From the NCBI GenBank assembly GCA_025174535.1, contig JALBUN010000007.1:248001-312000 (forward strand): 64,000 nucleotides of DNA, read 5' to 3'. Made by a program: the position numbers and the translations under genes. Every line of letters starts with the position of its first letter. Position 1 is the stretch's first letter. Origin of the DNA: Cantharellus purpuraceus (Eukaryota > Basidiomycota > Agaricomycetes > Cantharellales > Hydnaceae). This document shows, one piece after another, positions 39,762 through 58,061 of this stretch. The notes below the pieces were generated by a model that made no database searches, was not told the DNA's origin, and worked only from the letters and a program-made list of their open reading frames with translations.

Positions 39762-40170
39762 TGTCAAGCCCTGACTAGTCAAGCTCTGACTAGTGGTACA
39801 AGGAGGGGCAGAGAAAGAACTGGAAGGTCATCCGACCAAAAGGTGGCAGATGGAGACAGGTGCTGTGGCAGCTGGAGGTAGCAGTGTCAGATTGGAGGGG
39901 GCAACAACTGGCACAGGTATGGGGCACATCTCCACACCCAACAGTACTGTGGGCCAGCTTATCTGGCTGGTTAACCTGCAGTCAGAGCACCTCTGGCAAA
40001 TGGAGGGGTTGTTAGTGGAGTTAGTGAAGACAATGAAATAGAAGGAGGTTCTGGAGGGCCAGTGGACTGCTGAGTTGCATTGGCTGCAGAAGTTCATAGC
40101 CCCCTTGGACAAGGATTCAGACATGGGGGATGAGAAAGATTGGGTGTCAGATGTAGAGTGACGATGAGTC
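39762..40170 (+). pseudogene. Downstream part of the antisense gene, copy 2
   Basis: After the second CAGAG the sequence resumes as TGTCAAGCCCTGACTAGT and VQGGAEKELEGHPTK, the homologue of 15210-15593. A TAG (TGG to TAG) interrupts it at about 40039 within KTMKWKEV. It was separated from its upstream part by the 9.3-kb Gypsy F insertion. Confidence 0.65.
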
Positions 40171-40393
40171 AGAGATGGCATCGGAGATGGAGCCTGAGGT
40201 AGACAAGGGGAAGGGAAAAAGGAAGTGCAATGTATAACTAAAGATAAAAGTAATTTTGATTGTAATACTTTGGAGCAGAGAGAAAATGGGATGGAGTGGG
40301 TTTTTTCAGAGGTTGGGTAGACTTGTAATTTTCTTTGTGACTTTGTAATAAAACGATGATGCAAAATAATGGAATTAGCATCAGTAATGGAAC

Positions 40394-41637
40394 TTAAAGA
40401 TTCATAAGAGGACCAGGTTTGTCTGGATAAGCAGAGTGAAAATCGGAGACAGATTTGGATGCATGATCAAGTTTGGATGTGGAGATCCATGAGGACTCTT
40501 CATTGGTGCCTTTGTATCCAGTCCATTTGACTAGGTACTGGAGCTTGCACTTGTATCGATGATCGATCTTCAAGTCCAGGATCTCAGATATCTCATATTC
40601 ATTATCTCCTTCGATGATGATTGGGGGAGGTGGAGGTTGCGTGCAACCGGAGATCTCGTTTGTAGTAGCAGGTTCAAGCATTGATATATAGAAGACCAGA
40701 TGAACTGCTCAGAAGTGGTCAGAGAGGTGGAGGGTGAAGGACCTGCTGCCTGTGCGAGCAATGACCTCATAAGGACCTAAGTATTTCTCAGAGAGTTTCT
40801 TCAATGGACGGGTGGTCCAGAAGTGTTTAGCCTTGATGAATACTTTGTCTCCAATTTGCAGGTCTGGAGCTGGGATGCGGCGTCAGTCTGCAGAGACTTG
40901 GTATTGTTTCTGGGCATTGGAGATTGTTTTTTGGAGATGTTGGTGTAGTTGGTTGAGGTCAGTTATGAATTGGTGGGCTTTGGTGGAGGTGAGTTCCTTC
41001 TTGGGGTGGACAGAGATGTTTGGATGGTAGCCTTTATTAGAGATGCCAGTAGTCACATTTGGGGCATTGTTGTAGGCAAACTCTGTGATCGGAAGTAGGT
41101 CAGCCCAGTTGTCTTGTTGATAGTTACAATAGACTTGGAGATATTGTTCCAGGGACTGATTCATTCATTCTGTTTGTCCATCTCCATCAGGATGGCATCT
41201 GGAGGTGAAATGAATTCATGTCAAGAGCCTTTCCTAATGTGCAGAAGAAGGAGGACATGAACTCTGAGCTCCAATTGGATGTCACATGTGATGGCACTCT
41301 GTGTTTAGAGAATACATGGAGAACAAACAACTTAGCTAGTATGGCAGAGGTGATAGTGTTGTACATCAGAATGAATAGTGACTGTTTAGTGAACCTGTCA
41401 ACAATCATAAGTACGGTGTCATATCCAAGCAATGGGGGGAGCTTCTCTATGAAATCCATGGAGATGGAGTTCCATGGTTGCTCTGGAACCAGAAGTTGCT
41501 TAAGTGTTCCATAGGGTTTGTGCCTTTGCGATTTTGAGCACATACACATGGTACAAGAGTTACAGTAGTGTTGAATATATTCTTGCATTTTTGGCCATAT
41601 GTAGTCCCATTGGATTAACCCTTGTGTGTGGTTTTGC
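40394..41637 (-). pseudogene. Family-A copy 2 integrase C-terminal half and chromodomain
   Basis: Minus strand: the integrase core begins SMDFIEKLPPLLGYDTVLMI. The second catalytic region reads VTSNWSSEF, where VTSDRGSEF is expected (D to N, R to W, G to S, all CpG-type). The region with TEFAYNNAPN follows, then a chromodomain YEISEILDLKIDHRYKCKLQ...LVKWTGY...ESSWIS, ending at 40394. The frame is broken at about 41165-41187. Confidence 0.85.
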
Positions 41638-42154
41638 TGTTATGACTATATTCATTAACGACCAGATCCCCGTCCGATCCACTCAGATCTCCACACATAT
41701 GAAATCTATACTCCATTTGGAAACCACCACATCTCCATCTACCTGTCTGATTGTCACCGCCGATTCCGCCCATCCATCTCCGGTTCCAATTGATGCATCA
41801 GCATCACCATAGGAACCCGGACATCTGGCCCCATTGGACTCAGACATACTCATGTAAGGCCATCGGCCTTGGAGACCCATCACCAGAGTAATTATTATTA
41901 GATTTCAAAATATGTATTTAAGTTGCCTGACTGGGGACTTCATTCCCCAGTTCGAATATCGAATCACACCTAGTTCCTAAGTCCAATCCTAACTCTCTGA
42001 GTTGTACTCCATCTCCAAAATCTCAGACACCAGTATTAGTGAGGGCGCAGCACATAAGCTGAAGCCAAGTCCATTCTGACCCCCATGACGTACTCTGACT
42101 CCGACCCAACCTCCAACCCAATCTCTGACTCCCAATCAGACCTAGTGCATAACA
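41638..42154 (+). repeat. Solo family-A LTR with TTTGC duplication
   Basis: 517 bp, TGTTATGAC...GCATAACA, flanked by TTTGC at 41633-41637 and 42155-42159. It inserted into the integrase zinc-finger region of family-A copy 2, that is, into an older member of its own family. Confidence 0.95.
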
Positions 42155-43302
42155 TTTGCCCAAAATGGCTGGAAATTGGGTGATCATGATAATACTGCAA
42201 AACTTGGAGTTGGAGTCTGTTGACATCAGGGATGTATATCTGGTCATTGTGTTGGAGTCTGTTGACGTCAGGGATGTATCCAGTCATTGTGTTGGAGTCC
42301 ATTGACATCAGGGATGTATATCTGGTCATTGTGTCAGAGGTGTCCTTTGGGGTCAAGTGACCACTTTGGATTGGAAATGTCATCCAAGTGTTTAACTGCA
42401 ACAGGATTGGATCAGAGTGATGAGCAGATGTCAGAGCAGAGTTGGTCGATGTCCATAATGATGACAGCTTGGAGGGTGGGAGTCATGAGGGTGGATGCTC
42501 ATAGGGATGATGCCAGCTGCTTGTTGGTGAACACAGGATGAAAGTTGTGTGGGTTTACAGTGGCATAGTTGCTACTCCCCTCTTTAGGGTAGACATCCCA
42601 GCATCTAGTTAACACATTGGGTTTTGCTCCAAGTTGACCAGGGTGGAAACAGATAATGAGATTGAACTGAGACAGGTATTCAGACCATTGGACTTGTCTC
42701 TGGGTGAGTGGTTTCATTATGGAGAAGTATTCCAGGTTCTTGTGGTCCATTATGACATCAACCAGATCAGAGGGGCCTTTGAGGTAGTGTCTCCATATCT
42801 GGAAGGCTTCATATATGGCAAGGAGCTCTTTGTCATAGACATCATAGTTCAGTTCAGAGGGCATAAATGTATGTGAGTGAAAAGCGATTGGATGGACTTG
42901 TCCGTCATCCGGAGAGATGATGGACAGGATCACAGCAAGTGCATAGTTGGAGGCATCGGTCTCTAATAGGATAGGGATGTCTGGAACCCAATGAGTCAGT
43001 ATTGAAGTGGAGGTAAAAGCCTTCTTCAAGGGCTCAAAGCTCTGTCTACATTCATCAGTGAAATTCCATTGGATACTCTTCCTAGTAAGCCAGGTGAGCA
43101 GAACAGTTATATCAGAGTAGTTGTAGATGAAGTGGCAGTAGAAGTTGGTGAACCCCAGGAAGGACTATGTCTTTGACTTTCCATGGTTCCAGCCATTCCT
43201 GTATGGCTTTGATTTTGTCATCAGACATTGTCAGTCCTGTGGGGGAGAGGATATAGCCTAGATACTCAACTGAGTCGGGGTGGAATTTGCATTTGTTGGC
43301 GC
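42155..43302 (-). pseudogene. Family-A copy 2 RT end, RNase H and start of integrase
   Basis: Minus strand: after ANKCKFHPDSVEYLGYILSP (RT thumb) come the RNase H segments LLETDASNYALAVILS and YDVYDKELLAIYEAF, then FHPGQLGAKPNVLTRCWDVY, the usual FRPGRLGxKPDALTRRWDVY with CpG-type changes. The 42180-42370 part holds a short local duplication (GGGATGTATATCTGGTCATTGTG repeated about three times, 58-60-bp spacing). Confidence 0.85.
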
Positions 43303-44728
43303 TGTCAGTTCACTTATGGAATAGATCCTATAAGCCTGCATGCAACAGTCCTAGCAAACAGATGGTGTGTAATGCAGTTGTTCAGCACACCAAAGAACAG
43401 TCAGGCCAAAGGGGTAGTATTGAGTAATGGGTAAGTGTAATAGTGCTCTGTGGTTGGAAGATGAGGTGAACAAGAGGGATGTTTAAGATGGTAGGTTGTG
43501 CTCTGTGACTGGAGGACAATGGGGAGCCTGGTTAGGAGGTATGTGAAAGCTGCTTTCAGGAGAAGTGACCTCTCGGTGGCGGAGGGAAATCTGATCATTG
43601 AACCAAGGTGCTTTACCTTAGTGTAGAGCTAATGGATTGTGATGTAGAGCATAGAGTGTAGACTTAGAGTGTGGACTTTGACTTTAAAGCATTGGCTGAA
43701 AACTTGTTGATTGATCCAAAAGGCAAAAACTAGCACCCTTTTATATACAAATCCCCAGGACACAATGACACAATATGAGGAGCAAATGATGCAATATGAT
43801 GCAAGAAATGCTGATCAAGCCAGCTGATGAAGCATGTGAAGTTGAACTACTAATGGGGAAATCATGGAGAAATGAAGTGACAGATAGGGGTAATCTTTGT
43901 AAGAATAGGGGGTGATGAGTAATAAAAGAACCAAAAATAGAACAAGGATGAGTAAGTTGTGTATGAATGAATTAAAAGATGAAACAGGGGTGAGTCATAT
44001 AAAAGAACAATAGAAACATCCACCAATACCATCTTCCCTATGGCTCTGAAGGTAAGTTGACCCTGAGTCACATGAGGACTTCAGTCAGCATCCACAATAA
44101 ATACTCCTTATTGTCTTAGTGATCCATCTCCATATGGTATCCTGTTCCAAGGGTATTCAGTCCCTTTGCCTGACAGGATGTAACCTGAGTCAGATTGAAG
44201 TGGGAGGATAGGTCGGCAATGGTGACTGAAACTCTACCTCACATTCAACTCTTCTATCCATGTTACAATATAGAGGCAAAATGCCAAGGAATGTATATGG
44301 TTCAATGGAATTGTGAAAGAATATGGGATCACCAATGGCATAAGAGAGACGTGGTGGGGATCTTGGACATTGAAAGAGTTTTGGAAGTATTTTGACACAT
44401 GGAGGTGGCTTAACATGCCTGTGGAGCTTGGTGTATTTTTGATAGTCCTCCATGTCCAGAGACCAGTGTGATGTATTATTAGAAGGGATGTTGGAGAGAG
44501 GAATAGAATTGGAAGCCATATGAATGATGATGAAAGAATCAGTGTGAATAGAAGGCTGATAATGATTGATGGCAATGAAACATGAGTGATGATCAATGGC
44601 TAGAAATAGAGACTGAGGTGGAGAGGGAGTTGTGGCGCTATTTAAAAGCTTGATATGAAAAAAGACGCTGGTGGAGTTGGACTGTCAAAGTGGTTCGATA
44701 TATGTCCTCAATGCATCCTGGCTTGTCA
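43303..44728 (-). repeat. Solo family-B LTR with GCGC duplication
   Basis: 1,426 bp; plus strand reads TGTCAGTTCAC...GGCTTGTCA, flanked by GCGC at 43299-43302 and 44729-44732. Removing it with one GCGC rejoins the RT frame (LFTRA and NKCKFH) of the host element. Confidence 0.93.
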
Positions 44729-44732
44729 GCGC

Positions 44733-45347
44733 GGGTGAAGAGGCCATGTTTGTGGAGACATTGGAGTACTTCTTGGACGTGTGTCCAATGTTCATCTTCA
44801 TTATCCAAATATACCACAATGTCATCTAAGTAAATGAGGACGGTAACATCAAGGAGGTCAGCAAAGGTATCATTCATGAACTGCTGGAAGCATGACACAC
44901 ATTCAAAAGATCCATATCAAGTGTGGAAAATCATTTTCCATATGGACTAGATGATAGGCATGTTGGTGATCTATTTTGGAGTAGATCTTAGCCTTTCATG
45001 GGCTCTTGAGCAGGTTTGCGGTGTGGGGTATTGGGTATCAGTCTTTCTTGGTGATCTTGTTGAGTTCACAGAAGTCAACACATAAACAGAGTGATCCGTC
45101 CTTTTTGCAGACAAATAGGACCAGAGCTGCATGGGGGGATAGGGATGGGTGGATGAAGCCCATGGCCAAGTTCTCATCTATGAATGTTTGGAGAGCCAGT
45201 AGCTCTTTTTGGGATAGCAAGTAGATAGGGCCAAGTGGAGGGGTGGAGTTGTCATTCAACTCAATCTTGAGATTGTATGGTTGGTGTTCCACTAGTGAGT
45301 TGGCTTTAGACTTGGCTTTGAACATGTCAGTGAACTCATGATACTCC
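44733..45347 (-). pseudogene. Family-A copy 2 reverse transcriptase, N-terminal half
   Basis: Minus strand: YNLKIELNDNSTPPLGPIY, QKELLALQTFIDENLAMGFI, then VLFVCKKDGSLCLCVDF, where two Arg are replaced by Cys (CGC to TGC). The palm keeps LIYLDDIVVY with both Asp. The frame breaks at about 44900-45030 between these parts. Confidence 0.88.
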
Positions 45348-45350
45348 TTA

Positions 45351-45915
45351 GACGCTTGTTCGGAATCATGTCAGTATACAATATTCTGATGTATAGGAGA
45401 TATACATCAGGATTTCAATGATACATAAAGCCAGGGAGTTACAATTTGGATATCTTAAAAGATTTCGGATGTGTGAAATTTTCATAAATATAAACATATA
45501 TTCTATATTTTAATAAACTTTAAAAGATGAGATATTTGGTTGAGATGAACATAATTATTTACATGGATATAATAGGAATGTATATATGAATATAATTGGT
45601 ATTATATAGGGTATTTAGATATACAAATACCAGGTGGGGATTAAAGATAGTTCAAATTATGTTACAAGTATTGTATAAGAAAGAATCAATGATATTTGGA
45701 TGTTCCCTCAAGGGAGTTGCCACCACTAAATGGGGAAAAAACAATTATTTTTGAGAATTATGCCAAAATATCAAAATATGTTTTAATCTAGTATATTGTG
45801 TAAAATTTGAGAATCATGTTGAAATATGAAAATAAGTTTGAATTGAAGTGTATTGTATAAAATTTGAGGAAAATAGGTTGTACATACGTATTTGTTGTAT
45901 TTCTGAATAAGCGTC
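45351..45915 (+). repeat. Left 565-bp terminal repeat
   Basis: It starts GACGCTTGTTCGGAATCATG and ends TTCTGAATAAGCGTC, followed by TTA (45916-45918). I read it against 52490-53054 without finding a difference. Confidence 0.95.
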
Positions 45916-46455
45916 TTAGGAAAGTCTTGGAAACAAACACCTTTAATGCAGTGAAGCTATTTTTAAAACAAAGTAACTTAGTTAGGGCATAGTGGTAGAT
46001 AATCTTGTTCTAACATAAGACTGTATGACTATCCCTCGTACTTTAGGGTGCAATACCATCAGATTTTCCATCCAAAGTGGTGGAAAATAATGATCCTGCT
46101 CCATACTAGTATATAACTCTGTTAATTTCTGTTCCAGAAGTGTGCCATCAGTACATCTGTATAAAGTCAGTGATTGGAACCTTGGTATTTATAAAGGAAC
46201 TTACCTCAGAAACAAATCATGGAGGGATCCTATCCGAGATATATACCAATCATTAACTCTTCTATCAAACTCTATCTTGCATTGAAGCATAAAAGAGAGC
46301 ATCTTCATAATGCTTATAACATAAAAACATAATAATCATTTTATTAAGAAAGCAAGATGTATATATCTACTGCCTATACAAAATATCAAATGTTCAGAAA
46401 AAAATGATTTTTATATTTTTTCATTTCTGTTTTATAAGCAGAGAGGGATTTGAAA

Positions 46456-47523
46456 ATGTCACAAATCTTTGAAGATATAAAAGCAATCAAAGGCTGGATA
46501 AGTGACAATGATGCACTGATAAAAGCTATGGCAAGTCAAATGGAAGTAAAAGATGAATTAATATCTGATCTTATAAATGTCAAGTCTTGGATGAGTGAAA
46601 AGGATAGGCAGATCGCTATACTTGAACAACAGGTTAATTCCCAGAGTCAGGAAATTCAGGTGCTTAAGAAACAGGTTGAGGAAAAAAATACAATTATAAC
46701 TACTTTGACAGACAGGAAAGAGAATTTAGATGAATGGATGAGTGAAATGAATGATATTGTATCAGGATTTGGAACAGATATTCATAAACTTCAGAGACAG
46801 GTTAATAGGTGTGTTGCCACAATATCAGACCATGGAACAGATATTCATCAACAGGTCAATACACATAATGCAGAGAATCTTATATTGGACCATAGAACAG
46901 ATATTCATAAACTTCAGAAACAGGTTAATAGATGTATTGCAACAATATCAGACATTGTGGAATGGAAATCTGAAGTGCATGAGTGGATTGTAGAAACAGA
47001 TGATACTGTAGTGGAACTTGGAACAGACATTAATAAACTTCAGAAACAGGGTGATAAATATAAAGCAATAATATCTGAGATTGTTGACTGGAAATTTGAT
47101 ATGAATCACTGGGCTGGAAAACAAGAACAGGAGGTAACAAGGTTACAGGAAAATGGTACCAGAAAGGTGACATTTAAGATAGTGAAAAGAGGTGTAGATT
47201 ATATACTTATAGACTCAGATCAGTCTTGTAGACTAAATAGAATGGAATTATTCATAAATGGTGAGCCTAGAAAACTATCTACAATATATACTAGGAAGAA
47301 TGAAATGTCATCATATGACGTAGATGGTAATAGGATTAATTTTCAAACATGGAAGCAAGGAATGACTCAAGGTTCAAGGCATCAAGAAAAAAGGTCTAAG
47401 GAACGATCTCAAACTCCTAGTTCAAGGCATCAAGAAAAAAGGTCTAAGGAACGATCTGATTCAGACTCTGATCAATCTCAAATTCCTAGTTCAAGAAAAA
47501 GATGTAGAGGGAGAACCCAGTAA
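46456..47523 (+). CDS. Element ORF 1: coiled-coil protein with SR-like tail
   Basis: An intron-free frame of 355 residues starts MSQIFEDIKAIKGWI. Residues about 1-235 are heptad-rich coiled coil with internal repeats of the type GTDIHKLQRQVNRCVATISD (three or four copies). A compact segment with TFKIVKRGVDYILIDSDQS follows. The tail has two copies of SRHQEKRSKERSQTPS-type sequence and ends basic (KRCRGRTQ), so nuclear targeting or RNA/DNA binding is plausible. No family recognised. It is the first ORF after the left repeat, in the place a Gag or structural protein would occupy in an LTR element; that parallel is only positional. Confidence 0.7.
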   Translation: MSQIFEDIKAIKGWISDNDALIKAMASQMEVKDELISDLINVKSWMSEKDRQIAILEQQVNSQSQEIQVLKKQVEEKNTIITTLTDRKENLDEWMSEMNDIVSGFGTDIHKLQRQVNRCVATISDHGTDIHQQVNTHNAENLILDHRTDIHKLQKQVNRCIATISDIVEWKSEVHEWIVETDDTVVELGTDINKLQKQGDKYKAIISEIVDWKFDMNHWAGKQEQEVTRLQENGTRKVTFKIVKRGVDYILIDSDQSCRLNRMELFINGEPRKLSTIYTRKNEMSSYDVDGNRINFQTWKQGMTQGSRHQEKRSKERSQTPSSRHQEKRSKERSDSDSDQSQIPSSRKRCRGRTQ

Positions 47524-48630
47524 TGTAAGCCTCCAAAGACGTAGGATACAAGGTCACCTTGGAGTGAATGGCTGTCCATGAGCAGTCTAATGATGTCCCT
47601 ATCTGTCGTTTCATTTCTCCATGATTTCCCCTTTAGTAGCTCAACTTCACACGCTTCGTCAGCTGGCTTGATCAGCATTTCTTGCATCATTTGCTCCTCA
47701 TATTGTGTCGTTGTGCCCTAGGAATTTGTATATAAAAGGGCGCTAGTTTTCGCCTTTGGAATCAAAAAACAAGTTTTCAGCCAACGCTCTAAGTCTACAC
47801 TCTACATCACAATCCATCATCTCTACACTGAGGTAAAACACCTTGGTTCAACAATCAGATTTCCCTCCGCCACCGAGAGGTTGCTTCTCCTGAAACCAGC
47901 TTTCGCGTACCTCCCAACCGGGCTCCGCATTGTCATCCAGTCACAGAGCACGATCAGCCATCGGGACCGACCTTTTGCTCCCATCCTCATCCAACCACAG
48001 AGCACTATCCCACTTCCCTGTTACGTACCCCTCGCCCTGATTGATCTTTGGAGTGCTGAACAACTGCGTTACACACCGTCTGCTTGCTAGGACCATTGCG
48101 CGCAGGCTTATAGGATCTATTCCATAAACGAACCGACACCAAGTGACATCATCGGGCTGCTCAAGGACAACGATTCAATTATCTGGTACACCATGCCGCT
48201 GCAAAGTCTCACCTACTGTCTGCTCAGTAAGTGCATCATTATCAACCCTCACAGCCAAAAGGCTGTCCTTTGATAATGTGATCAAACTGCTCCTGACAAG
48301 GTGACCTTCCATCCGACGTCATTACCATGATATGATAATATCCAATCGGCTGGTACACCTATTTAGCTATGCAGCAAAGAATTTGGAATGAAAGACTGGC
48401 AAGATAGGAAACAAGGAACTGGTAGAAGAATGATAGATGAAAGGACAGGGAATTCTGTATGGGACTTTGTTGTAGTATTCAGAACGAGTGCATGCATCTG
48501 GCTATTGACAACTTTAGAAAATATATATAATTCAATTTATAAATATTAGATAAAAATATGGACATTCTGCTCTTCAGAACTATGCACATATCTAGTAAAT
48601 AAATTTTATATATCCTTCTTTATTGACATC
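47524..48630. other. Element interior carrying foreign, GC-richer sequence
   Basis: Between ORF 1 and the next frame the composition shifts to host-like from about 47525 to about 48360, including a truncated family-B LTR (47592-48138). A short GC-balanced stretch (48139-48360) contains an inverted repeat around CACAGCCAAAAGGCTGTCC. AT-rich element sequence resumes at about 48440. Confidence 0.5.
47592..48138 (+). repeat. Family-B LTR, 3' portion
   Basis: CCCTATCTGTCGTTTCATTT to GAACCGACA matches the last third of family B, including the TATATAAAAGGGC TATA box near 47730. CpG sites are well preserved (for example CGAACCGACA), so it is a young fragment. The 5' two thirds are missing. Confidence 0.75.
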
Positions 48631-49122
48631 ATGGGTAAAGATAAGAAGTGCAATGATTGGAGTTCTCATGATCTTTGGGATTATGGTATAATGGTTGACA
48701 CACAATGGACTAAACAGTTTTTTGAGACAGATTTTAGAGATATTACTTTAGATACTGATGATGAGATCCTCAGTTTTGATTACAAAAAAGATGATGTGAA
48801 ATGTTTAAAGGAGTCTTCAAGAAAATTTTTACATACTTAGATAAGGAAGAATAAGGGAAAAAGTGCTTTAGAGGAAATGACAATACCTTGCATTCAAACA
48901 TCGAGAAAAGTCCCCCAGTTTTACCTAGTAACTGTTACAAGAGAGCTTGATCATGCTATCACAGAAGGGTTGTTTTCAGAAGTGATAACAAATGTAAGGT
49001 GTTGTTTCCCTGTAACAGTAACAGGTATGAAACATATTAATAGTAGAAAGAATGTTCTACAGTGTTTTGAAGCATTTAAGAAGTTTGTAGATATACTTGA
49101 TAGGAAATTAGATGAGAAATAA
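48631..49122 (+). CDS. Element ORF 2: unknown protein with one in-frame TAG
   Basis: The frame starts MGKDKKCNDWSSHDLWDYGI and runs 69 codons to a TAG at 48838. The same frame then continues open for another 93 codons (IRKNKGKSALEEMTIPCIQT ... DILDRKLDEK) to TAA at 49120. Together it would be 163 residues including the stop position. No domain recognised. Possibilities are a nonsense mutation, read-through, or two adjacent ORFs; an intron across the TAG is not obvious. Confidence 0.5.
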
Positions 49123-49160
49123 TGAGTTTTGAAAATTAATATATAATAACCAGAGACACC

Positions 49161-49340
49161 ATGTTGAATATACCTGAGATTGGTGATAAGGTATCATTTA
49201 TCAATGCAAGAACACAAATGACAGTGACAGGTATTGTTACATTAGTAACTGGCACTTTGTCAGATGACACTTTGCTAATAACTGTTACTTATGATGACAA
49301 TGAGATTCAGCTACCACTACGTGCACTACAACAAGTATAA
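49161..49340 (+). CDS. Element ORF 3: 59-residue beta-rich protein
   Basis: It starts MLNIPEIGDKVSFINARTQM and ends EIQLPLRALQQV. The pattern GDKVSF...VTGIV...LLITVTYDDNEIQLPL resembles a small SH3/Tudor-like barrel, but that is only a pattern impression. It lies 38 bases downstream of ORF 2 on the same strand. Confidence 0.45.
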   Translation: MLNIPEIGDKVSFINARTQMTVTGIVTLVTGTLSDDTLLITVTYDDNEIQLPLRALQQV

Positions 49341-49436
49341 GATAAATCAGATAAGTGAATATGCAATATTTTTATTCACTCAAATGAAGGCATGTGTGGT
49401 GATAGTGAAAAATTCAAATTACTTGGAAGTGCAATC

Positions 49437-49614
49437 ATATAACTACTACATCTGTAGTTACAGATTGTAAGGATATTAAATGTCCTAAGAGCTCTGAACA
49501 TTCAAAAAATACTCATCATGATACTAATGGTACTTATTGTTGTGTGAACAAAAGTTCAAATCTTGAAATTATCCAAGTGAAAATAGATGAAAAATGTTGT
49601 GAGTGTAGAAACTA
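49437..49614 (+). other. Short Cys-rich open frame
   Basis: A frame without its own early ATG reads TTTSVVTDCKDIKCPKSSEH and ends DEKCCECRN before TAG (49612-49614). It has six or seven Cys in about 58 residues. An upstream ATG frame (near 49391) is offset by one reading frame. It may be an exon or a decayed ORF. Confidence 0.3.
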
Positions 49615-49633
49615 GGACTTTTAAATCAACTCC

Positions 49634-50284
49634 TTATGAGGATTCTTTGAACATCTGATTTCTTATACTTTGGAATATAATGTCAATAGCATTAGAACAC
49701 TCTTCAAACTGAGCTTCTATGCTGTATCCAGAGGAAGGATATACAACAATTGAAACACCCTGATTGTTATTGGTGGTTTCATATAATTTTAACCTACCAT
49801 CCTTAGTTATGATCATACCATAGATTGTGATTTTACTTTTCTTGAAAACTCTCTGCTGTTGTTTCAATGCAACAACCATTGATGTAACCAAATTGTTATA
49901 CACATCACAGTTCTTACAAGTTTCCCCAGCAATAGAAATATCACACTTCTTGCCAGTTTCTCTAGCAATAGAAATATTACAACTAGGCAGATTATCCTGT
50001 TGCATGGTTTGCAGACTTGACATACAATGATTTTGTTGAATCCAGGTTGAATTACTTATTTCATTGCCCTTTTCAATCATCTTATTGTACAGTGCTTCTG
50101 GTGTTTTATCTCTTTCCTGAGAAACCAATCCAGCTGGAAAGAAGTCCTTTGGGGGATTTCTTAATCTGAATTTTATGTAGATGGTGTCAGAGTCTATATA
50201 CAAAGGATTTTCATCATCCTCTGGTTCTTTTTTAACAAAGACAGTAGATATTTTACGAACAACTTGCTTAGAGACAGACAACAT
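49634..50284 (-). CDS. Element ORF 4: unknown protein on the opposite strand
   Basis: A 216-residue frame starts MLSVSKQVVRKISTVFVKKE. It contains an acidic DDENPLYIDSDTIYIKFRLR segment and two short near-repeats, CNISIARETGKKCDISIAGE. It ends with a beta-rich part (SKITIYGMIITKDGRLKLYE). No family recognised. It is divergent from the transposase gene, with about 96 bases between start codons, so the two probably share a bidirectional promoter; this is the only large ORF of the element on the minus strand. Confidence 0.6.
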   Translation of the reverse strand: MLSVSKQVVRKISTVFVKKEPEDDENPLYIDSDTIYIKFRLRNPPKDFFPAGLVSQERDKTPEALYNKMIEKGNEISNSTWIQQNHCMSSLQTMQQDNLPSCNISIARETGKKCDISIAGETCKNCDVYNNLVTSMVVALKQQQRVFKKSKITIYGMIITKDGRLKLYETTNNNQGVSIVVYPSSGYSIEAQFEECSNAIDIIFQSIRNQMFKESS

Positions 50285-50380
50285 AGCTTCATAGAATAAA
50301 TATTATTTAATTTAAAATTCAATTATCAAAAAAATGAACATATTTTTGTTTTACTGTAATATAAGAGTATCTTAGTCAAA

Positions 50381-51730
50381 ATGCCCTCAGACCAGCAAAA
50401 ACGCACAAAGGAGCAAAAAGAGAAAGAGCAAAAAGAGAAAGAAGAAAAAGAGCTTCAGCAACTTAAAATGTGGAATGATCAAAGGGACAGAGCATATAAT
50501 AAGTTGATGGACAATCATTGGAATTTTCTATACACAAAGTGGCCTGTCTTAGAACACAAAAAATATCATAGAACAAAACTAAAAGATATGAATGATATGG
50601 ATGATGTAAAAAAAGTAGTATATAACAAGCTTGGACCAATACCAGTATTTTTCTTTCTTGTGGTATTGTTTTCAGTTGAAGAACATTCTACACCTTATAG
50701 AGAGATAGAAAAAGGCTTGTTAGTACTATATCATCTACTCAAAGGTCCTACTTATGAAGAAATAGGAAATTTCATGCCATCAAGTAGCTTTTATGATGTT
50801 CATAAGGAATTTTATGGTCGTCTGCATCATCTTAACTTTGATCTAGATAAACAAGTTACTGATTCACTGCGTACAATGTTCTCAAATATAATAATAAGGA
50901 TATTATCAGCTCTTATAAAGAATCCTCCAAAAATGGAATCAGTGACATTACTTCTTGATGGTCATGATACAAGAGGAATTTTGATTGGATCGGCATCTGA
51001 AGAGGGGTACTCATATAAATTTAAAAAGGCAGGATTTCGTACTCAAGTATGCATTGACATTAATCAAATGGTTCTATTCACCTCACCTTCATTGGCATGT
51101 AAACTAAATCCTGATGCAAAAATGTTTGTAGAGATGGCTGTATGGAATAAAATAGATAAGAATGATCAGATAGGCTTTGATGGAGCTTATCCATCTGCTA
51201 TTCCAGAAGTAGTAAAGGCAAGTATATTAAAGCCTAAGAACTTCTTTTATCCTTTTCGGAAGCCAAAAAATGTTGAACTTAAACCTGAAGAAAAGATTTT
51301 TAATAAGAAGTTTGGTGCCTTTCGTTCAACAGTAGAAGCATTCTTTGGAGGGTTTGCAAGATTGTTTGAAAAATTTGATAATAAGAGATCTATTAGAACT
51401 ACAAATCCTGCTGTCTTTAATCTGGAATTAAAGGTAGCATGTCTATTATGGAATATTAAGAAATTTGTAGAACTACGTAAGATCAAACCATCCCCTTATC
51501 ATGAAAAATGGTGTGAACAATATTTTGATTACCCTGAGGAAGAGGACCCAGATATTGAGCCACCCAGATCATTACTGGAAAGAGCAGAAGATGTTGACAA
51601 GATGACTCAATCTCAACAACGACTATTAGAAAGATGTGAGTATGATGTGGAGATGCATTATGAGACTGAAAATGAAGTAGAACAAATAATAAGGCAAAGA
51701 AAAAGGAAAGTACGTAGAATATTTAGTTAA
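50381..51730 (+). CDS. DDE transposase, PIF/Harbinger (DDE_Tnp_4) type
   Basis: An intron-free frame of 449 residues starts MPSDQQKRTKEQKEKEQKEK, a Lys/Glu-rich N-terminus. A helix-turn-helix-like segment lies at about 121-150 (GPTYEEIGNFMPSSSFYDVH). The catalytic core follows the PIF/Harbinger pattern. D193 is in SVTLLLDGHDTRG, then YKFKKAGFRTQVCIDI. D267 is in IGFDGAYPS. E319 is in FGAFRSTVEAFFGGFARLFE. All three acidic residues are present. A 3-bp TTA duplication around the element agrees with this superfamily. The C-terminus (DVEMHYETENEVEQIIRQRK) is the start of a chromodomain that shifts frame at about 51716; see the next entry. The gene looks intact otherwise, unlike every retroelement ORF nearby. 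Confidence 0.82.
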   Translation: MPSDQQKRTKEQKEKEQKEKEEKELQQLKMWNDQRDRAYNKLMDNHWNFLYTKWPVLEHKKYHRTKLKDMNDMDDVKKVVYNKLGPIPVFFFLVVLFSVEEHSTPYREIEKGLLVLYHLLKGPTYEEIGNFMPSSSFYDVHKEFYGRLHHLNFDLDKQVTDSLRTMFSNIIIRILSALIKNPPKMESVTLLLDGHDTRGILIGSASEEGYSYKFKKAGFRTQVCIDINQMVLFTSPSLACKLNPDAKMFVEMAVWNKIDKNDQIGFDGAYPSAIPEVVKASILKPKNFFYPFRKPKNVELKPEEKIFNKKFGAFRSTVEAFFGGFARLFEKFDNKRSIRTTNPAVFNLELKVACLLWNIKKFVELRKIKPSPYHEKWCEQYFDYPEEEDPDIEPPRSLLERAEDVDKMTQSQQRLLERCEYDVEMHYETENEVEQIIRQRKRKVRRIFS

Positions 51731-51857
51731 ATGGAAATGTTATGCAGAGAAAACTTGGGAAGCAACATCAAGCTTTAAATCTACAGAATGTATTAAAGAG
51801 TATTGGAAAGACAATAGTAATAATATTATTGTATACCTATGCTACATTCAACTGTAA
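51717..51857 (+). pseudogene. Chromodomain continuation of the transposase (+1 frame)
   Basis: One base off the transposase frame, the sequence reads EYLVKWKCYAEKTWEATSSF and then KSTECIKEYWKDN before TAA at 51855-51857. With the transposase's EVEQIIRQRKRK this completes a chromodomain (EVExIL...EYLVKWKxY...TWE). The transposase frame hits TAA only a few codons after the switch, so one extra base near 51714-51716 or a frameshift explains it. A GTATAC ... TTATAG stretch (near 51832-51906) could be an intron leading into the next ORF. Confidence 0.7.
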
Positions 51858-51912
51858 ATTTTTTTCCCAGAATAAAATTGAATATTTGTATGTTTTATAC
51901 TTATAGGTATCT

Positions 51913-52410
51913 ATGGAGACTGATCCATTACTGAAACAGCGTCTCAATCAACAGTTTTACCAAAAGCCTTTTCACAGCAATCCACACCGGCTAGCTAATT
52001 GTACAACGTGTGACTGGTACCCCTTTGGGCAGTATCTGGACCGTTCATATGCTGAAGGTGAAGTGTTCCAGCTTTCAAAGTATCCTCATATCAAATATGT
52101 ATTTCTTGGTCTACAACCTGATAAAATAGGCTATAATGAAAGTGATCCTATTTTTGTAGCAGAATTTGCAGGTTTTCTGAATAAAACCAACAGATTTGTA
52201 AGTGGTTCTGATCCAACCTCTGGATATGCACACATTATAACCACACATGTGAATCAGGCGTTTGTTAGACAGCCAGGCCCAGATATAAATAGGCAGAAAC
52301 TATATCTTGGCCGTACAGTGCACATGATCTACATAACTAGTATTGGTATACTATTGGCTTTGCTGTGTTGGACAGTGTCCAGACATACCAATGAAGATAA
52401 GAATTCATAA
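51913..52410 (+). CDS. Element ORF 5: protein with C-terminal membrane span
   Basis: The frame starts METDPLLKQRLNQQFYQKPF and gives 165 residues. Near the C-terminus IYITSIGILLALLCWTVS is a single hydrophobic segment preceded and followed by basic residues, as in a tail-anchored protein. The rest has no recognised domain (CTTCDWYPFGQYLDRSY; HIKYVFLGLQPDKIGYN). A TATAG directly before GTATCTATGGAG would let it splice in phase with the chromodomain frame, so it may be the C-terminus of the transposase gene. Confidence 0.55.
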   Translation: METDPLLKQRLNQQFYQKPFHSNPHRLANCTTCDWYPFGQYLDRSYAEGEVFQLSKYPHIKYVFLGLQPDKIGYNESDPIFVAEFAGFLNKTNRFVSGSDPTSGYAHIITTHVNQAFVRQPGPDINRQKLYLGRTVHMIYITSIGILLALLCWTVSRHTNEDKNS

Positions 52411-52489
52411 TGGCATGTCTAAATCTATGGAGAAAGAAGCTTGTTGATGATATAAGGTGATGATTTTTGTTTTTAAAATGACCTCCCTA

Positions 52490-53054
52490 GACGCTTGTTC
52501 GGAATCATGTCAGTATACAATATTCTGATGTATAGGAGATATACATCAGGATTTCAATGATACATAAAGCCAGGGAGTTACAATTTGGATATCTTAAAAG
52601 ATTTCGGATGTGTGAAATTTTCATAAATATAAACATATATTCTATATTTTAATAAACTTTAAAAGATGAGATATTTGGTTGAGATGAACATAATTATTTA
52701 CATGGATATAATAGGAATGTATATATGAATATAATTGGTATTATATAGGGTATTTAGATATACAAATACCAGGTGGGGATTAAAGATAGTTCAAATTATG
52801 TTACAAGTATTGTATAAGAAAGAATCAATGATATTTGGATGTTCCCTCAAGGGAGTTGCCACCACTAAATGGGGAAAAAACAATTATTTTTGAGAATTAT
52901 GCCAAAATATCAAAATATGTTTTAATCTAGTATATTGTGTAAAATTTGAGAATCATGTTGAAATATGAAAATAAGTTTGAATTGAAGTGTATTGTATAAA
53001 ATTTGAGGAAAATAGGTTGTACATACGTATTTGTTGTATTTCTGAATAAGCGTC
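52490..53054 (+). repeat. Right 565-bp terminal repeat
   Basis: Same orientation, length and, as far as I can read, sequence as 45351-45915. It is preceded by CTA inside the element and followed by the TTA target duplication. Confidence 0.95.
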
Positions 53055-53057
53055 TTA

Positions 53058-53170
53058 GGAACCATAGATAGGTCTGGTGGAGTTGATCATCGGAGAGGTG
53101 AACCTGGAACGTTTGTGAGCCCTCCAGTTTGCTTAGTCTGGCAAAGACCATAGCATCCACCATCAATATA
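53058..53170 (-). pseudogene. Family-A copy 2 protease-RT linker
   Basis: Minus strand reads VDAMVFARLSKLEGSQTFQV and DDQLHQTYLWF, the usual linker before the RT of this chromovirus. It is isolated between the AT-rich element and a solo terminal repeat. Confidence 0.75.
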
Positions 53171-53731
53171 GATGCTTGTTCAGAATCATGTCAGTATACA
53201 ATATTCTGATGTATATGAGATATACATCAAAATTTCAATGATACATAAAGCCAGGGAGTTACAATTTGGATATCTTAAAAGATTTTGGATGTGTGAAATT
53301 TTCATAGATATAAACATATATTCTATATTTTAATAAACTTTAAGAGATAAGACATTCAGTTGAGATGAACATAATTATTTACATAGATATAATAGGAATG
53401 TATGTATTAATATAATTGGTATTATATAGGATATTTAGATATACAAATTCCAGGTGGGGATTAAAGATAGTTCAAATTATGTTACAAGTATTGTATAAGA
53501 AAGAATCAATGATATTTGGATGTTCCCTCAACAGAGTTGCCACCAGTAAATGGGAAAAAAAGAATTATTTTTGAGAATTATGCCAAAATATCAATGTTTT
53601 AATCTAGTATATTGTGTAAAATTTGAGAATCATGTTGAAATATGAAAATAAGTTTTAATCCAAGTGTGTTGTGTAAAATTTGAGGAAAATAGGTTGTATA
53701 TACATATTTGTTGTATTTCTGAACAAGTGTC
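53171..53731 (+). repeat. Solo terminal repeat of the AT-rich element, ATA duplication
   Basis: 561 bp, GATGCTTGTTCAGAATCATG...GAACAAGTGTC, flanked by ATA at 53168-53170 and 53732-53734. It differs from the paired repeats by scattered substitutions and small indels, many of them CG to TG, so it is older. Confidence 0.9.
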
Positions 53732-53734
53732 ATA

Positions 53735-54711
53735 GATGGAGGGGTAGGCAGAGTATCTATCAGAGGTGGAAGATAATTTTGCACCTATAGTTGCTGGTGA
53801 TGTCAGGGATGACACAGCCTGCACTGGAGAACAGAATGTGATATGGCCCAATGCCCAGTCAATCAACAGATTGTAGTGGGTGAGCCAATTATGTCTGAGA
53901 ACCACAGAACAGCTGGAGTCAAGTGGAGTAACATAGAATGTAAGGTTCTGGATTTCTCTGACAGAAAAACAGATAGACAGATCTATAGCTCGTTAAGTAA
54001 CAGCATTAGTAGTGTCATCAAATAATCAGAGCAATATCAGAGTTATGGTGTATGTATTGAGTTTATGTAAGTTGGAAAAAATGGAATCAAGGAAACAGTG
54101 AGTAGAACCAGAGTCAATTAATGCTTGGATAGTGGTATCAGGAATGGAGTCGGAGTAGATGAGGAGGGTGAGAGAGTTGGAGTGGGAAAGAGTGGATGCA
54201 TTCAGGTGGATCTCATTTGTTGTATGGGGAGTACCAATGCAGCCCTCAGCCCATACAGAGGCTAGAGGACTGCTTACTATTTTTTTTGGTCTGTCATGGC
54301 ATTGGTGGCATGGCCCTTTGCCTTTGCTGCAGATGAGGTTGCCTTGTTGCAATCCTTGCTTGATGGCTAGGCTTTCCACAGAACAGACAGGGGTTGTTGT
54401 CCATGTGGCGCTGGCATTCCTGCTGGGTAAGTTTGCCATCCTTTCCCAGCTTGGTGGAGAGGTCTGGAGTGCTCTTGTGAGCTCTGGAGTTATTGCTGGT
54501 GCTGGAGTTGTTCTGACCAGACCCAGAAGCAGTGGTGTTACCAGTGTTTGACTTCTGGCTGGAGTTGGTAGTGGTCTTCTTATCGGACCCCTTGTTGGAC
54601 TTTGGGGTCTTGTCCACTGATTTGTCTGATTTGTTGTTAGCTGAATTTTCATGGGAGACCTTGGATTGACGTTCCCAATAATGAGCATCAATGGATTGGG
54701 TGAGCTTGGGT
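53735..54711 (-). pseudogene. Family-A copy 2 Gag C-terminus and protease
   Basis: Minus strand: Gag tail WERQSKVSHENSANNKSDKS followed by a Ser/Asn/Lys-rich region and the knuckle CLFCGKPSHQA. In another frame come the protease ALIDSGSTHCFLDSIFSNLH and the downstream [12 protein letters not shown]...LIDWALG, the retropepsin C-terminal motif. Stops and frame changes separate the pieces. Confidence 0.85.
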
Positions 54712-54757
54712 GATTTAGAGTTTGCCCTAACACTATAATGTTGCAGGTTCCAAGACA
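54712..54757 (+). repeat. Family-C LTR end fragment
   Basis: GTGATTTAGAGTTTGCCCTAACAC...CCAAGACA matches the last 46 bases of family C. It marks the right limit of the recognisable family-A element. Confidence 0.7.
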
Positions 54758-55495
54758 CTGGGTGTATGCATAGTCAAATTGATAGTATCTTCATATGAAA
54801 TATGATGAGATTTGGTAGGGTCCTCATCTAGATATTGACAGTTTGAGCAAGGATCAGGAATATGAGTAAATGCTTAATAGAAAATCAACCAGTAAAGCTC
54901 AGGCTTTTCAAACTGGGATTCAAATAGATGCTGCAATACTCTAGAAGATTATGCAAAGGTTAAAAGAAATTCAAGTTCATTCTGGAGCTATTCCAGAAAC
55001 AAAGCATTCAGACACAGACAACAAAAACAAGTGCGAGTAAATCCTCTGGTCCATTTCATATCTAACTAGGCATGTTTTATACAAGATATGGGTCCTAGGA
55101 GCTCATGATAAAAGTCCTGTATCATGCGGATTTAGGGAAAGAAACTTGTGATGTAAACAAAATGGAGGGTGGAGCCAATAGGGAAAAATGATGAAATAAA
55201 ATATAAAAGAAATTTAGGAGAGTGGTCCAATGGATGTGGAGCTTACAGGGGCTTCTCCTCTTCCCTCTTAACCATTTCCCCTCACTTTCCTATCTCCCCC
55301 TTGACCTCCTGAGCCTCCTATGTGCTCCTGTTCCCCCTTTCCCCTACCCCCTTATGTGCACATAATCAACAAGAGGTACATATATAGTTGGGACACTTCC
55401 AAATGAAGGTCACAAGACAGTGTCATGACTGTATTAAAACACATTAAAGTAAGGCAGAAGAACATGATATGTTAGAAGCGACTTGAATGATCATC
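54758..55495. other. Intergenic region between repeats and host genes
   Basis: AT-rich sequence to about 55200 without recognisable coding, then a C-rich pyrimidine stretch (55255-55350). No gene supported. The border of the repeat block lies somewhere here. Confidence 0.4.
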
Positions 55496-58061
55496 TTAGA
55501 GATTGCCCTTGATCATGTCCGCTGCCTGAATCTCCATTAGTAGCGTACAAGCACAAAACGTTGCAGGCAGTCTGACCTTCTCTCCAATTGCATATATGGT
55601 GGATGACTATTAACCAAGATGAATATATGCAACAGGACGAGGAGACATTACAACTTACAAGATGCGCGCTGACTGGGAAAGGAATAATTGATGCATCTTA
55701 TAAACTATGGTAAATAGTTTGAATGCCCTCTGAGAATGATCTGACTAACCTGCAACTCGTACATTGCTTGTGCCATATACTTTCAAAGACGTATCCACCA
55801 CACCGCCAAGCTCTTCTGGTAACATCGAAGCAGTCCCAACTTCATGATTATCGGATGCAATGACTCCCCTCAGCCATCCTTCAATTTCTTCATCTGTTTG
55901 AAACTGTTCACCAGGCTCAAATTCGCCGCCAAAGATGTTGTCCATTGGTGATACCCTGAGCATTTGACGCGCAAGCTTGATGCCGCCGACCTGTGCGGCG
56001 ATGTCGACTGGATGGCCCCAATAGTTTGGATCAACGTTTGGGGGAGTGAATGGATCAGAAGAAGCTATATGCGACCTTCCTCGAGAAAGAGGGGCATACA
56101 GTACAGAGTTAATTGCAGTAAATGTTCGCTTAGGACGGGATCCAAACGGCGTAGGACCTGTGGGACAGGTAGTCAGCCTTCCAACTACTTACTGACCACA
56201 AAACCATACCAGAATATCCGGGTTCTGCATGTCTCATGAGAAAAGGACAGCATTATGACCACATGGAGAGTTCCATACCTAAATTCATTTCAAGGGGTAA
56301 TTCTTTCTGTTGCTCATACAAGTCCAAGGCTATTGTAAGCTGGGCCTCAATACCCTTCGCGAGTTTCGAATTCCCATTAGAAAACTGAATGGCAGTCTCC
56401 CTCACGTTTCTTCTGGCCTGATTGACCAGTGACTGCAATTGCGAGGTGTTGAAGATATCACGGGGCGCAGCGATTCCAAGTGAACGAGGTGCGGCGGATA
56501 GAAGGCCTAGCGTGTGACCAGCTTCAGCATAACGTCCTAATCGTTATGTAAACATTACCTGTACGATTCTTGAACCAAAGAGCACGCTGCTCGGCCGCAA
56601 ATGTAGTGTTCAAATTGAGTTGATCCTTGGTATTTCTGAAGGATAAGATGTCAAATTCAAGTGCATTTTCTGCATTTTCGACAAAAAGGAACCGACGTTA
56701 GGTTGGTGAAGCAGTTAGCCCAGCTATGGACATGATCTGGACATAGGTCAGGCTCTGGGCAAACATGAAGGAAACCAATCTACCTGCGAAATTCTCTCCA
56801 ACAGATGGGAGACTTAAGGTGGTGTTCACACCTGCCGCAGACAAGATCCTGAGCCAACATACGAAAATAAATTAGCTTCGCTACACAATCTTGAAGGATA
56901 GCAACTCACGTAGAGTTACCAACTCCCGACAATTCAAGCACTTTGGGGCTCCCTATCGTTCCCGCAGCTATGATGGCCTCACGTTCTACAGGCACAGTGA
57001 GAGTCTTTCCGCCTTGAACAAATTCTACGGCAGAAGCCACCAGCCTGTCACCGTCGGTGTTATTTCCCCAAATGATGCGTGAAACTGTCGCGTTTAAAAG
57101 CACAGTCAGATTCGGCCTGGACACAAACGGCGTGTAGTATGCGCAGGCTGCTGAGCATCTATTGTAGCAACTTCAGACAAGCAATACTCAATCACTTATG
57201 TTGGCCGACACACCGTGTGTTGTTCGCAGCATCAAGCGAATTTGGAGCTACACCGACAGCGTGTGGGTGTCCATTTGCTAAGTCAGGAGATATTGGGAAC
57301 CCTAAATTCACTGATGCATTGCGCCATAAAGCAGATTGGATAAAGAAGAAGTTGGGAAATCCAACTTTCACGTTGCCGTTGAATCCATGTACAGAGGGGT
57401 CGAAGCGAACACCACCGGTCTGCACCTGAAAGTCATTTGGAGGAGTGAAAACTTCGCTCTTCTTGAAGAATGGAAGAAGTCTATCCCAACTCCACTGAGA
57501 ATCGTTGTTCAACTTCGACCACACATCGTACTGTTCTTTTTCAGCACGGGGCTATTCCCACCAAACACAAACGCATATGTCAATTTGGAGCGCGGAAACC
57601 CACATCTGAAAGTTTAACTTACAAATATCATGCTGTTGATTACAGTTGAACCACCGAGGGCTTTGCCTGCATTGACAGTCAGATTGCGTCCATTGAGGTT
57701 CGCTTGAGGTATAGTTTTATAGGACCAATCGAGGGTAGTGAAAGATTGTCCAGTTCCTATCAATCCTGGTATGAAGACCTTCACATTGACGTTAGAGATC
57801 ATCCTTTCAAGGACTGCAGACAGTAGTACCTCAGGCAGATTTTCAGCATTGGGACCAGCTTCAATTACAGCCACAGACACTGCCGGATCCTCCGAGAGCC
57901 GATTGGCAACAGTCAAGCCTCTTTCTAGAGTCATTAGCAAGTTGCATAGAACGGACATGGCAGTTGGCCCACCCGGTTCCACCACCGATGACAACATAAT
58001 CATACGCTCGAAGTGAGGGCACGAACGGAGCGATATAAATGACACTATAGAGAACTCTCAT
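55496..58061 (-). CDS. Secreted GMC oxidoreductase (FAD; aryl-alcohol/glucose oxidase type)
   Basis: Thirteen exons (58061-57973, 57920-57623, 57551-57214, 57158-56910, 56848-56784, 56736-56697, 56635-56559, 56506-56279, 56224-56210, 56157-55750, 55696-55659, 55606-55577, 55525-55496) give 634 residues with all phases consistent. A signal peptide (MRVLYSVIYIAPFVPSLRA) is followed by the FAD-binding YDYVVIGGGTGG and ANRLSEDPAVSVAVIEAGPN. The GMC signature is NAGKALGGSTVINSMIF, with VEREAIIAAGTIGSPKVLEL and GENFADH later. The active-site pair is His in HEVGTASM and H614 in PVSAHL, before the terminal IYAIGEKAADMIKG. In wood- and litter-decay fungi such enzymes oxidise alcohols or sugars and supply H2O2; the substrate cannot be read from the sequence. 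Exon 9 is only 15 bases. Confidence 0.93.

Follow-up and report, generated by a model that had tools for sequence, protein, structure and literature searches.

A probable PIF/Harbinger-like family of DNA transposons bearing long terminal direct repeats in the fungus Cantharellus purpuraceus

Direct repeats resembling long terminal repeats (LTRs) are usually read as the mark of reverse transcription, and a 7.7-kb unit in the genome of Cantharellus purpuraceus raises the question of what such repeats mean when a DNA transposase gene lies between them. The unit occupies positions 45351-53054 of the window, by which we mean the whole 64,000-nucleotide stretch analysed here (contig JALBUN010000007.1 of assembly GCA_025174535.1, positions 248,001 to 312,000, forward strand), and consists of two terminal repeats (R) and an interior (INT) in the order R-INT-R. 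Our analysis indicates that it probably belongs to a PIF/Harbinger-like (PHIS) family of DNA transposons that bear long terminal direct repeats and work like the animal element KolobokP. This reading is drawn from INT boundaries that abut R, 3-bp target-site duplications (TSDs), a symmetric target, empty sites, a transposase of the DDE_Tnp_4 type, repeat pairs that are homogenised within elements and a dimer that shares one R.

In the window copy, the left R (45351-45915) and the right R (52490-53054), both on the plus strand, are 565 bp long and identical, as a first-pass annotation made from the letters alone had claimed; the exact match extends over 574 bases (45349-45922 against 52488-53061). 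Each R has its own short inverted ends (GACGCTT..AAGCGTC), also noted in that annotation, which are perfect over 7 bp and match at 13 of the outermost 15 bases, and the flank letters confirmed the TTA reported at both outer sides (45348-45350, equal to 53055-53057). INT (45916-52489, plus strand) starts with TTAGGAAAGTCTTG and ends with ATGACCTCCCTA.

The same layout recurs throughout the genome (40.15 Mb, 50 contigs), where the INT boundaries found adjoin R and INT measures 6.0-7.3 kb. Further repeat-interior-repeat copies were searched for, as had been proposed, and 20 stretches were fetched and examined together with the window. In 20 of these 21 copies INT could be cut out between its two junction strings (one substitution being tolerated at the right string); in the remaining copy, L024, the right junction was not seen in its stretch. 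A pattern scan allowing up to 3 mismatches located 62 INT starts, all with an R end directly before them (62/62), and 67 matches to the INT-end pattern, 59 of which run into an R start while 8 are unrelated and low-scoring. Neither INT without R nor an INT-INT junction was present among these pattern matches, in a scan that more diverged copies would escape. R 3' ends were found at 634 places (25-base pattern, up to 3 mismatches; reversed control, 0), and since there are 62 INT starts and 59 INT ends, at most 121 of these 634 belong to INT elements, the remainder not necessarily being complete Rs. Full-length R matches at 99-100% identity occur at 40 places at least; among the matches listed, 10 adjoin an INT boundary and the other 30 lie elsewhere. 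Additionally, tandem units sharing one R were found on contigs C45 (L010/L011), C38 and C44. The C45 dimer has equal TSDs at its outer flanks (TAA/TAA), and the C44 array stops with its contig (19,130 bases); as far as the fetched stretch extends, the R before its first INT has no canonical left end. The family is both young and large, its R ends numbering 634 and its INT starts 62 in this 40-Mb genome.

Insertions of this family duplicate 3 bp of target. We compared the flanks of full insertions and of solo Rs, Rs with no INT beside them, in a set reduced from 110 records to 103 by removal of duplicates and leaving out short or stretch-edge R copies. Equal 3-bp flanks were found in 17 of the 19 full insertions with both flanks readable, compared with 14% across mismatched pairs, and in 41 of 46 solo Rs, compared with 11.5%; none of these 41 duplications reaches 4 bp. 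The symmetrised target is a loose C|TWA|G consensus, in which the outer C/G reaches 59-66%, the inner T/A 66-76% and a central A or T 98-100%. The expectation of TTA/TWA duplications therefore held for their length and for the C|TWA|G-like site and failed as a strict rule, TAG, CAA, AAA, TTT, TAT, ATA, CTA and others being duplicated as well; this variety, seen in full and solo insertions alike, excludes a strictly TTA target. The ends of INT resemble halves of such a target, CCCTA at the right (52480-52489) and TTAGG at the left (45916-45922), and look like what would be left if R had once entered a circular INT. Some left flanks recur, being shared by the window copy and L036 and by L013, L023 and L042, through either repeated insertion or duplicated loci. 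Furthermore, the solos L085 and L086, about 40 kb apart on C6 and in opposite orientation, share both flanks but for one base and have different R sequences.

Empty sites, which the first-pass annotation had suggested looking for, are present in other Gypsy-like copies. We searched the genome with the joined flanks of the window copy (229 bases) and scored 40 rows of 493 candidates, of which 39 span the junction and the last is the window's own left flank. The 7.7-kb unit is absent from all 39 junction-spanning rows. Among them, 34 cover positions 1-210 or more of the query at 80-88% identity, and the other 5, at 91-93%, end 30-32 bases beyond the junction. The best example of an empty site is C6:529595-529822, where 228 bases correspond to the 229 of the query at 88%; the remaining 33 long rows run 7-25 bases longer, somewhere along their length, than the query they cover.

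The transposase of the window copy (50360-51730, plus strand, 456 amino acids from stop to stop) matches DDE_Tnp_4 with an E value of 6.3e-05 and 23.1 bits, slightly below the Pfam cutoff of 24.8, and all 28 aligned transposases match this profile (PF13359) at E ≤ 0.001. We take DDE_Tnp_4 to be a mark of the PHIS superfamily. The acidic triad D192/D266/E318 (codons starting at 50957, 51179 and 51335, plus strand) is conserved in the alignment, and by reading of the sequence no histidine lies between D266 and E318 of the window protein. Pfam Chromo is matched by 18 of the 28 aligned transposases; in the window, a chromodomain-like segment was read in the translation directly 3' of the transposase stop, in a different frame (51717-51809, plus strand). 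Named relatives of the transposase include Rhizomucor, Mortierella and Circinella. A search for relatives in IMG/VR viral contigs gave 24 pattern matches, 0 of which were confirmed. As had been claimed, no reverse transcriptase was matched, here in the 15 of 19 window-unit frames (70 amino acids or longer) and 14 of 21 L010 frames scanned. Myb/SANT was likewise unmatched in the frames scanned, where introns or divergence could conceal one, and so was His-Me, the frames scanned being part of all frames. An antisense low-complexity frame (L010:2479-2832) matched 132 Pfam families, which we took as a composition artefact.

INT also carries remnants of an accessory ORF (open reading frame; 48631-49119, plus strand), which has an internal deletion in 13 of 20 copies, that of the window included. 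Its relatives are the proteins P0105-P0110, only one of them named (Ephemerocybe angulata), and a fold was predicted for P0105 only, in place of the element's own protein. Foldseek ranked mitoribosomal chains first for this model, with one row below E 0.001. The accessory ORF may encode a PD-(D/E)XK-like nuclease, a reading of moderate strength because it comes from the lower rows of a second aligner, the order of secondary-structure elements and motifs read by eye.

The two Rs of an element resemble each other far more than they resemble the Rs of other elements. Counting substitutions only in 19 insertions (the R-sharing L010/L011 as well as L023 and L028 removed or merged, two others added), we found a mean of 2.3 differences within elements versus 10.8 between elements, with 7 of the 19 pairs showing 0, and 0 of 20000 random re-pairings reached the observed within-element sum. 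An earlier permutation that counted indels and included L010, L011, L023 and L028 gave 3.15 versus 12.0, again with 0/20000. In addition, left Rs differ from each other by 10.6 substitutions, right Rs by 10.9 and left from right Rs by 10.8. Pairs are thus alike within elements and there are no left and right lineages; therefore the pair is re-homogenised, either on insertion or by later recombination. The fixed layout, the 3-bp TSDs and this within-element identity support one of the two explanations first offered for the locus, a transposon family whose long terminal direct repeats are homogenised.

The histories of R and INT are not cleanly one. Across 20 elements, the INT core (the first 520 and last 2600 bases of INT) shows 4.1 differences per kb and R shows 18.9; distances between left Rs and between right Rs correlate at 0.80 (0/5000 permutations as high), whereas INT distances correlate at 0.34 with those of the left R (14/5000) and at 0.29 with those of the right R (85/5000). 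Moreover, at 35 of the 41 sites variable among the Rs of 19 full copies both alleles also occur among the 46 solos, and informative site pairs with all four combinations number 125 of 190 for R and 119 of 300 for INT; on account of these shared alleles and site pairs, R, and INT as well, recombine between copies. These data speak for INT spreading chiefly through recombination with R sites already present, in a homing-like manner, rather than through the unit transposing as a whole; the TSDs agree with either process. If INT simply homed into a solo R, however, the host R should stand at one end and the donor R at the other, yet the ends are alike. In this regard, R is about five times more divergent than INT even among the close relatives L009, L010, L011, L013 and L018, so a substitution rate in R higher than that of INT is possible, and either this or conversion from solos may suffice to explain the excess. 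We consider homing-like spread as the main route to be unlikely, though the best placed of the alternatives.

Under a PHIS transposon with long terminal direct repeats, the transposase encoded in INT would act at the short inverted termini of each R, as the TSDs, the target and the DDE motif suggest, and the unit would enter C|TWA|G-like targets with 3-bp duplications. Recombination between Rs would then give rise to the solo Rs and the R-INT-R-INT-R multimers that were both observed, and the likeness of the pair could be maintained if the unit passes through an intermediate with one R, for instance an INT-R circle, or if the two Rs repeatedly convert each other. With less assurance, R probably also moves alone in the manner of a miniature inverted-repeat transposable element (MITE). 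R base 558 (window 45908 and 53047), the eighth from the right end, is mostly T at full ends and mostly C at solo ends: in the first 100 perfect R 3' ends among the matches listed (contigs C1-C9), 50 C-type ends lie away from INT and 10 beside it, compared with 11 and 29 for the T type (Fisher 2e-8). C at this base makes a perfect terminal inverted repeat of 11 bp. Of the C-type solos, 14 lie no more than 6 substitutions from the window R and show 2.4 differences on average, and in L059 (1-1031) one R is nested in another with a 3-bp duplication, ATA. This skew, the near-identical young C-type solos and the nested R suggest a MITE-like unit; lineage history or recombination could also account for them. 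Placing the labels solo and full on the tree of Rs takes 17 changes, versus 31.5 when they are shuffled (0/500 as low), and 4 sets of identical Rs contain both solo and full members. Solos were chosen as unpaired Rs, so their ratio to full copies in the fetched set carries no meaning.

Several observations weigh against a PHIS family of this kind. Flanks are unequal in 2 of the 19 full insertions and in 5 of the 46 solos. The own partner is the nearest R, ties included, in 16 of 19 elements and strictly so in 11, and some pairs are clearly unlike (9 substitutions each in L012 and L021, 11 in L023). Relative to the window, the transposase has indels in 15 of 20 copies, and it is open at 448-456 amino acids in 5 of 20. 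Comparison between copies gives neutral counts of nonsynonymous and synonymous changes, and no selection signal, for each of the five ORFs and for a control stretch. No transposition, excision or circle was observed, the family being known here from sequence. Finally, PHIS is the best place to file the element pending a tree, its placement having been made by domain, TSD and target.

The combination of within-element repeat identity and many lone repeats is also the signature of LTR retrotransposons, and a non-autonomous one carrying a DDE transposase gene could have its repeats equalised by a reverse transcriptase acting in trans. The frames scanned in the window unit and L010 contain no such enzyme, although a partner in trans remains conceivable. 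Moreover, unlike LTR retrotransposons, this element has a DNA transposase, a 3-bp TSD at a symmetric C|TWA|G target and R ends that form a 13-of-15 inverted repeat, and by reading of either strand no tRNA-like primer site or purine tract was seen beside R, where INT starts with TTAGGAAAG and has the end given above. We therefore regard an LTR retrotransposon as very improbable. An opportunistic composite, in which two insertions of an R-type MITE enclosed a block of genes that was then amplified, would agree with the inverted ends and TSDs of R itself, its several hundred occurrences and the ..CCCTA and TTAGG.. ends of INT, but it is slightly less probable still, because no INT boundary was found without R, which also leaves the chance capture of genes by two mobile units (first-pass annotation) and a chance pair of MITE insertions unsupported, and because a frozen composite does not explain alike R pairs in each element without left and right lineages. 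Such a composite could nevertheless be how the family began.

Three further ORFs lie in INT of the window copy. ORF1 (46438-47523, plus strand; 361 amino acids from stop to stop) is coiled-coil-like and contains tandem repeats whose number differs among copies, and all its profile matches fall under the Pfam cut-offs. A 222-amino-acid ORF on the minus strand (49634-50302), for which no homologue was found, keeps its full-length frame open in 17 of 20 copies, and a 167-amino-acid ORF (51907-52410, plus strand), with a hydrophobic stretch near its C-terminus by reading, is open in all 20. The host of the insertion is a Gypsy-like retrotransposon copy, whose frames were read in translations at 39828-45370 and 53630-54790 on the minus strand. 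Within the same copy, 116 bases past the element, stands an older solo R (53171-53731, plus strand), 93.8% identical and with ATA at both sides, which is a separate insertion. GMC oxidoreductase-like frames were read at 57192-58057 on the minus strand.

The first-pass annotation knew of no described family with this architecture. KolobokP has it: in seven animal phyla, it combines long terminal direct repeats with INT, solos and multimers (Kojima and Bao 2022, PMC9587614). Both have repeats with their own short inverted ends (around 450 or 660 bp in KolobokP), an INT encoding a DDD/E transposase and a nuclease (here a possible one), solo repeats, and multimers that share a repeat, and TSDs are 3-5 bp in KolobokP and 3 bp here (PMC9587614). 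In contrast, KolobokP has a transposase of the Kolobok superfamily and a His-Me finger homing endonuclease and lives in animals, whereas the fungal element has DDE_Tnp_4 and a possible PD-(D/E)XK accessory ORF; some KolobokP copies have lost a repeat, and here no INT was found without its 565-bp R (PMC9587614). The element is accordingly not a KolobokP member and the likeness is probably convergent. With PIF/Harbinger, whose target is TWA, and with NuwaII, a PHIS element with target C|TNA|G, it shares the DDE transposase of the superfamily, the 3-bp TSD and a terminal inverted repeat beginning with G (Han et al. 2015, PMC4482050). Unlike NuwaII, which encodes a Myb/SANT protein (PMC4482050), it yielded none in the frames scanned; PHISTA elements of Puccinia also have no Myb/SANT ORF (PMC12730594). 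The phrase 'direct repeat' is absent from the available text of PMC4482050, 'direct repeats' appears once in that of PMC12730594, in an unrelated sense, and the passages concerned of a Marasmius oreades paper describe no such element. Bacterial composite transposons and IS26-type translocatable units also have two like units flanking cargo, with a possible one-unit circle, but their transposase is in the flanking unit and here it is in the cargo (PMC9587614). In open-licence full texts we recognised no DNA transposon of this layout besides KolobokP, and we found no account of it with a PIF/Harbinger-type transposase. As a more tentative possibility, Kolobok elements in animals and PHIS elements in fungi may each have evolved, independently, a convergent life cycle of DDE transposons, joining long terminal direct repeats and an accessory nuclease to a single-R circular or replicative intermediate that regenerates identical repeats, a freely recombining pool of Rs and homing-like spread of INT among R sites.

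A second type of transposase with the same layout, in another kingdom, implies that the LTR-like mark is not diagnostic. Programs for repeat finding could label such elements as LTR retrotransposons and their lone Rs as solo LTRs. Lastly, the youth and size of the family open to experiment the means by which a DNA transposon keeps its paired repeats identical.

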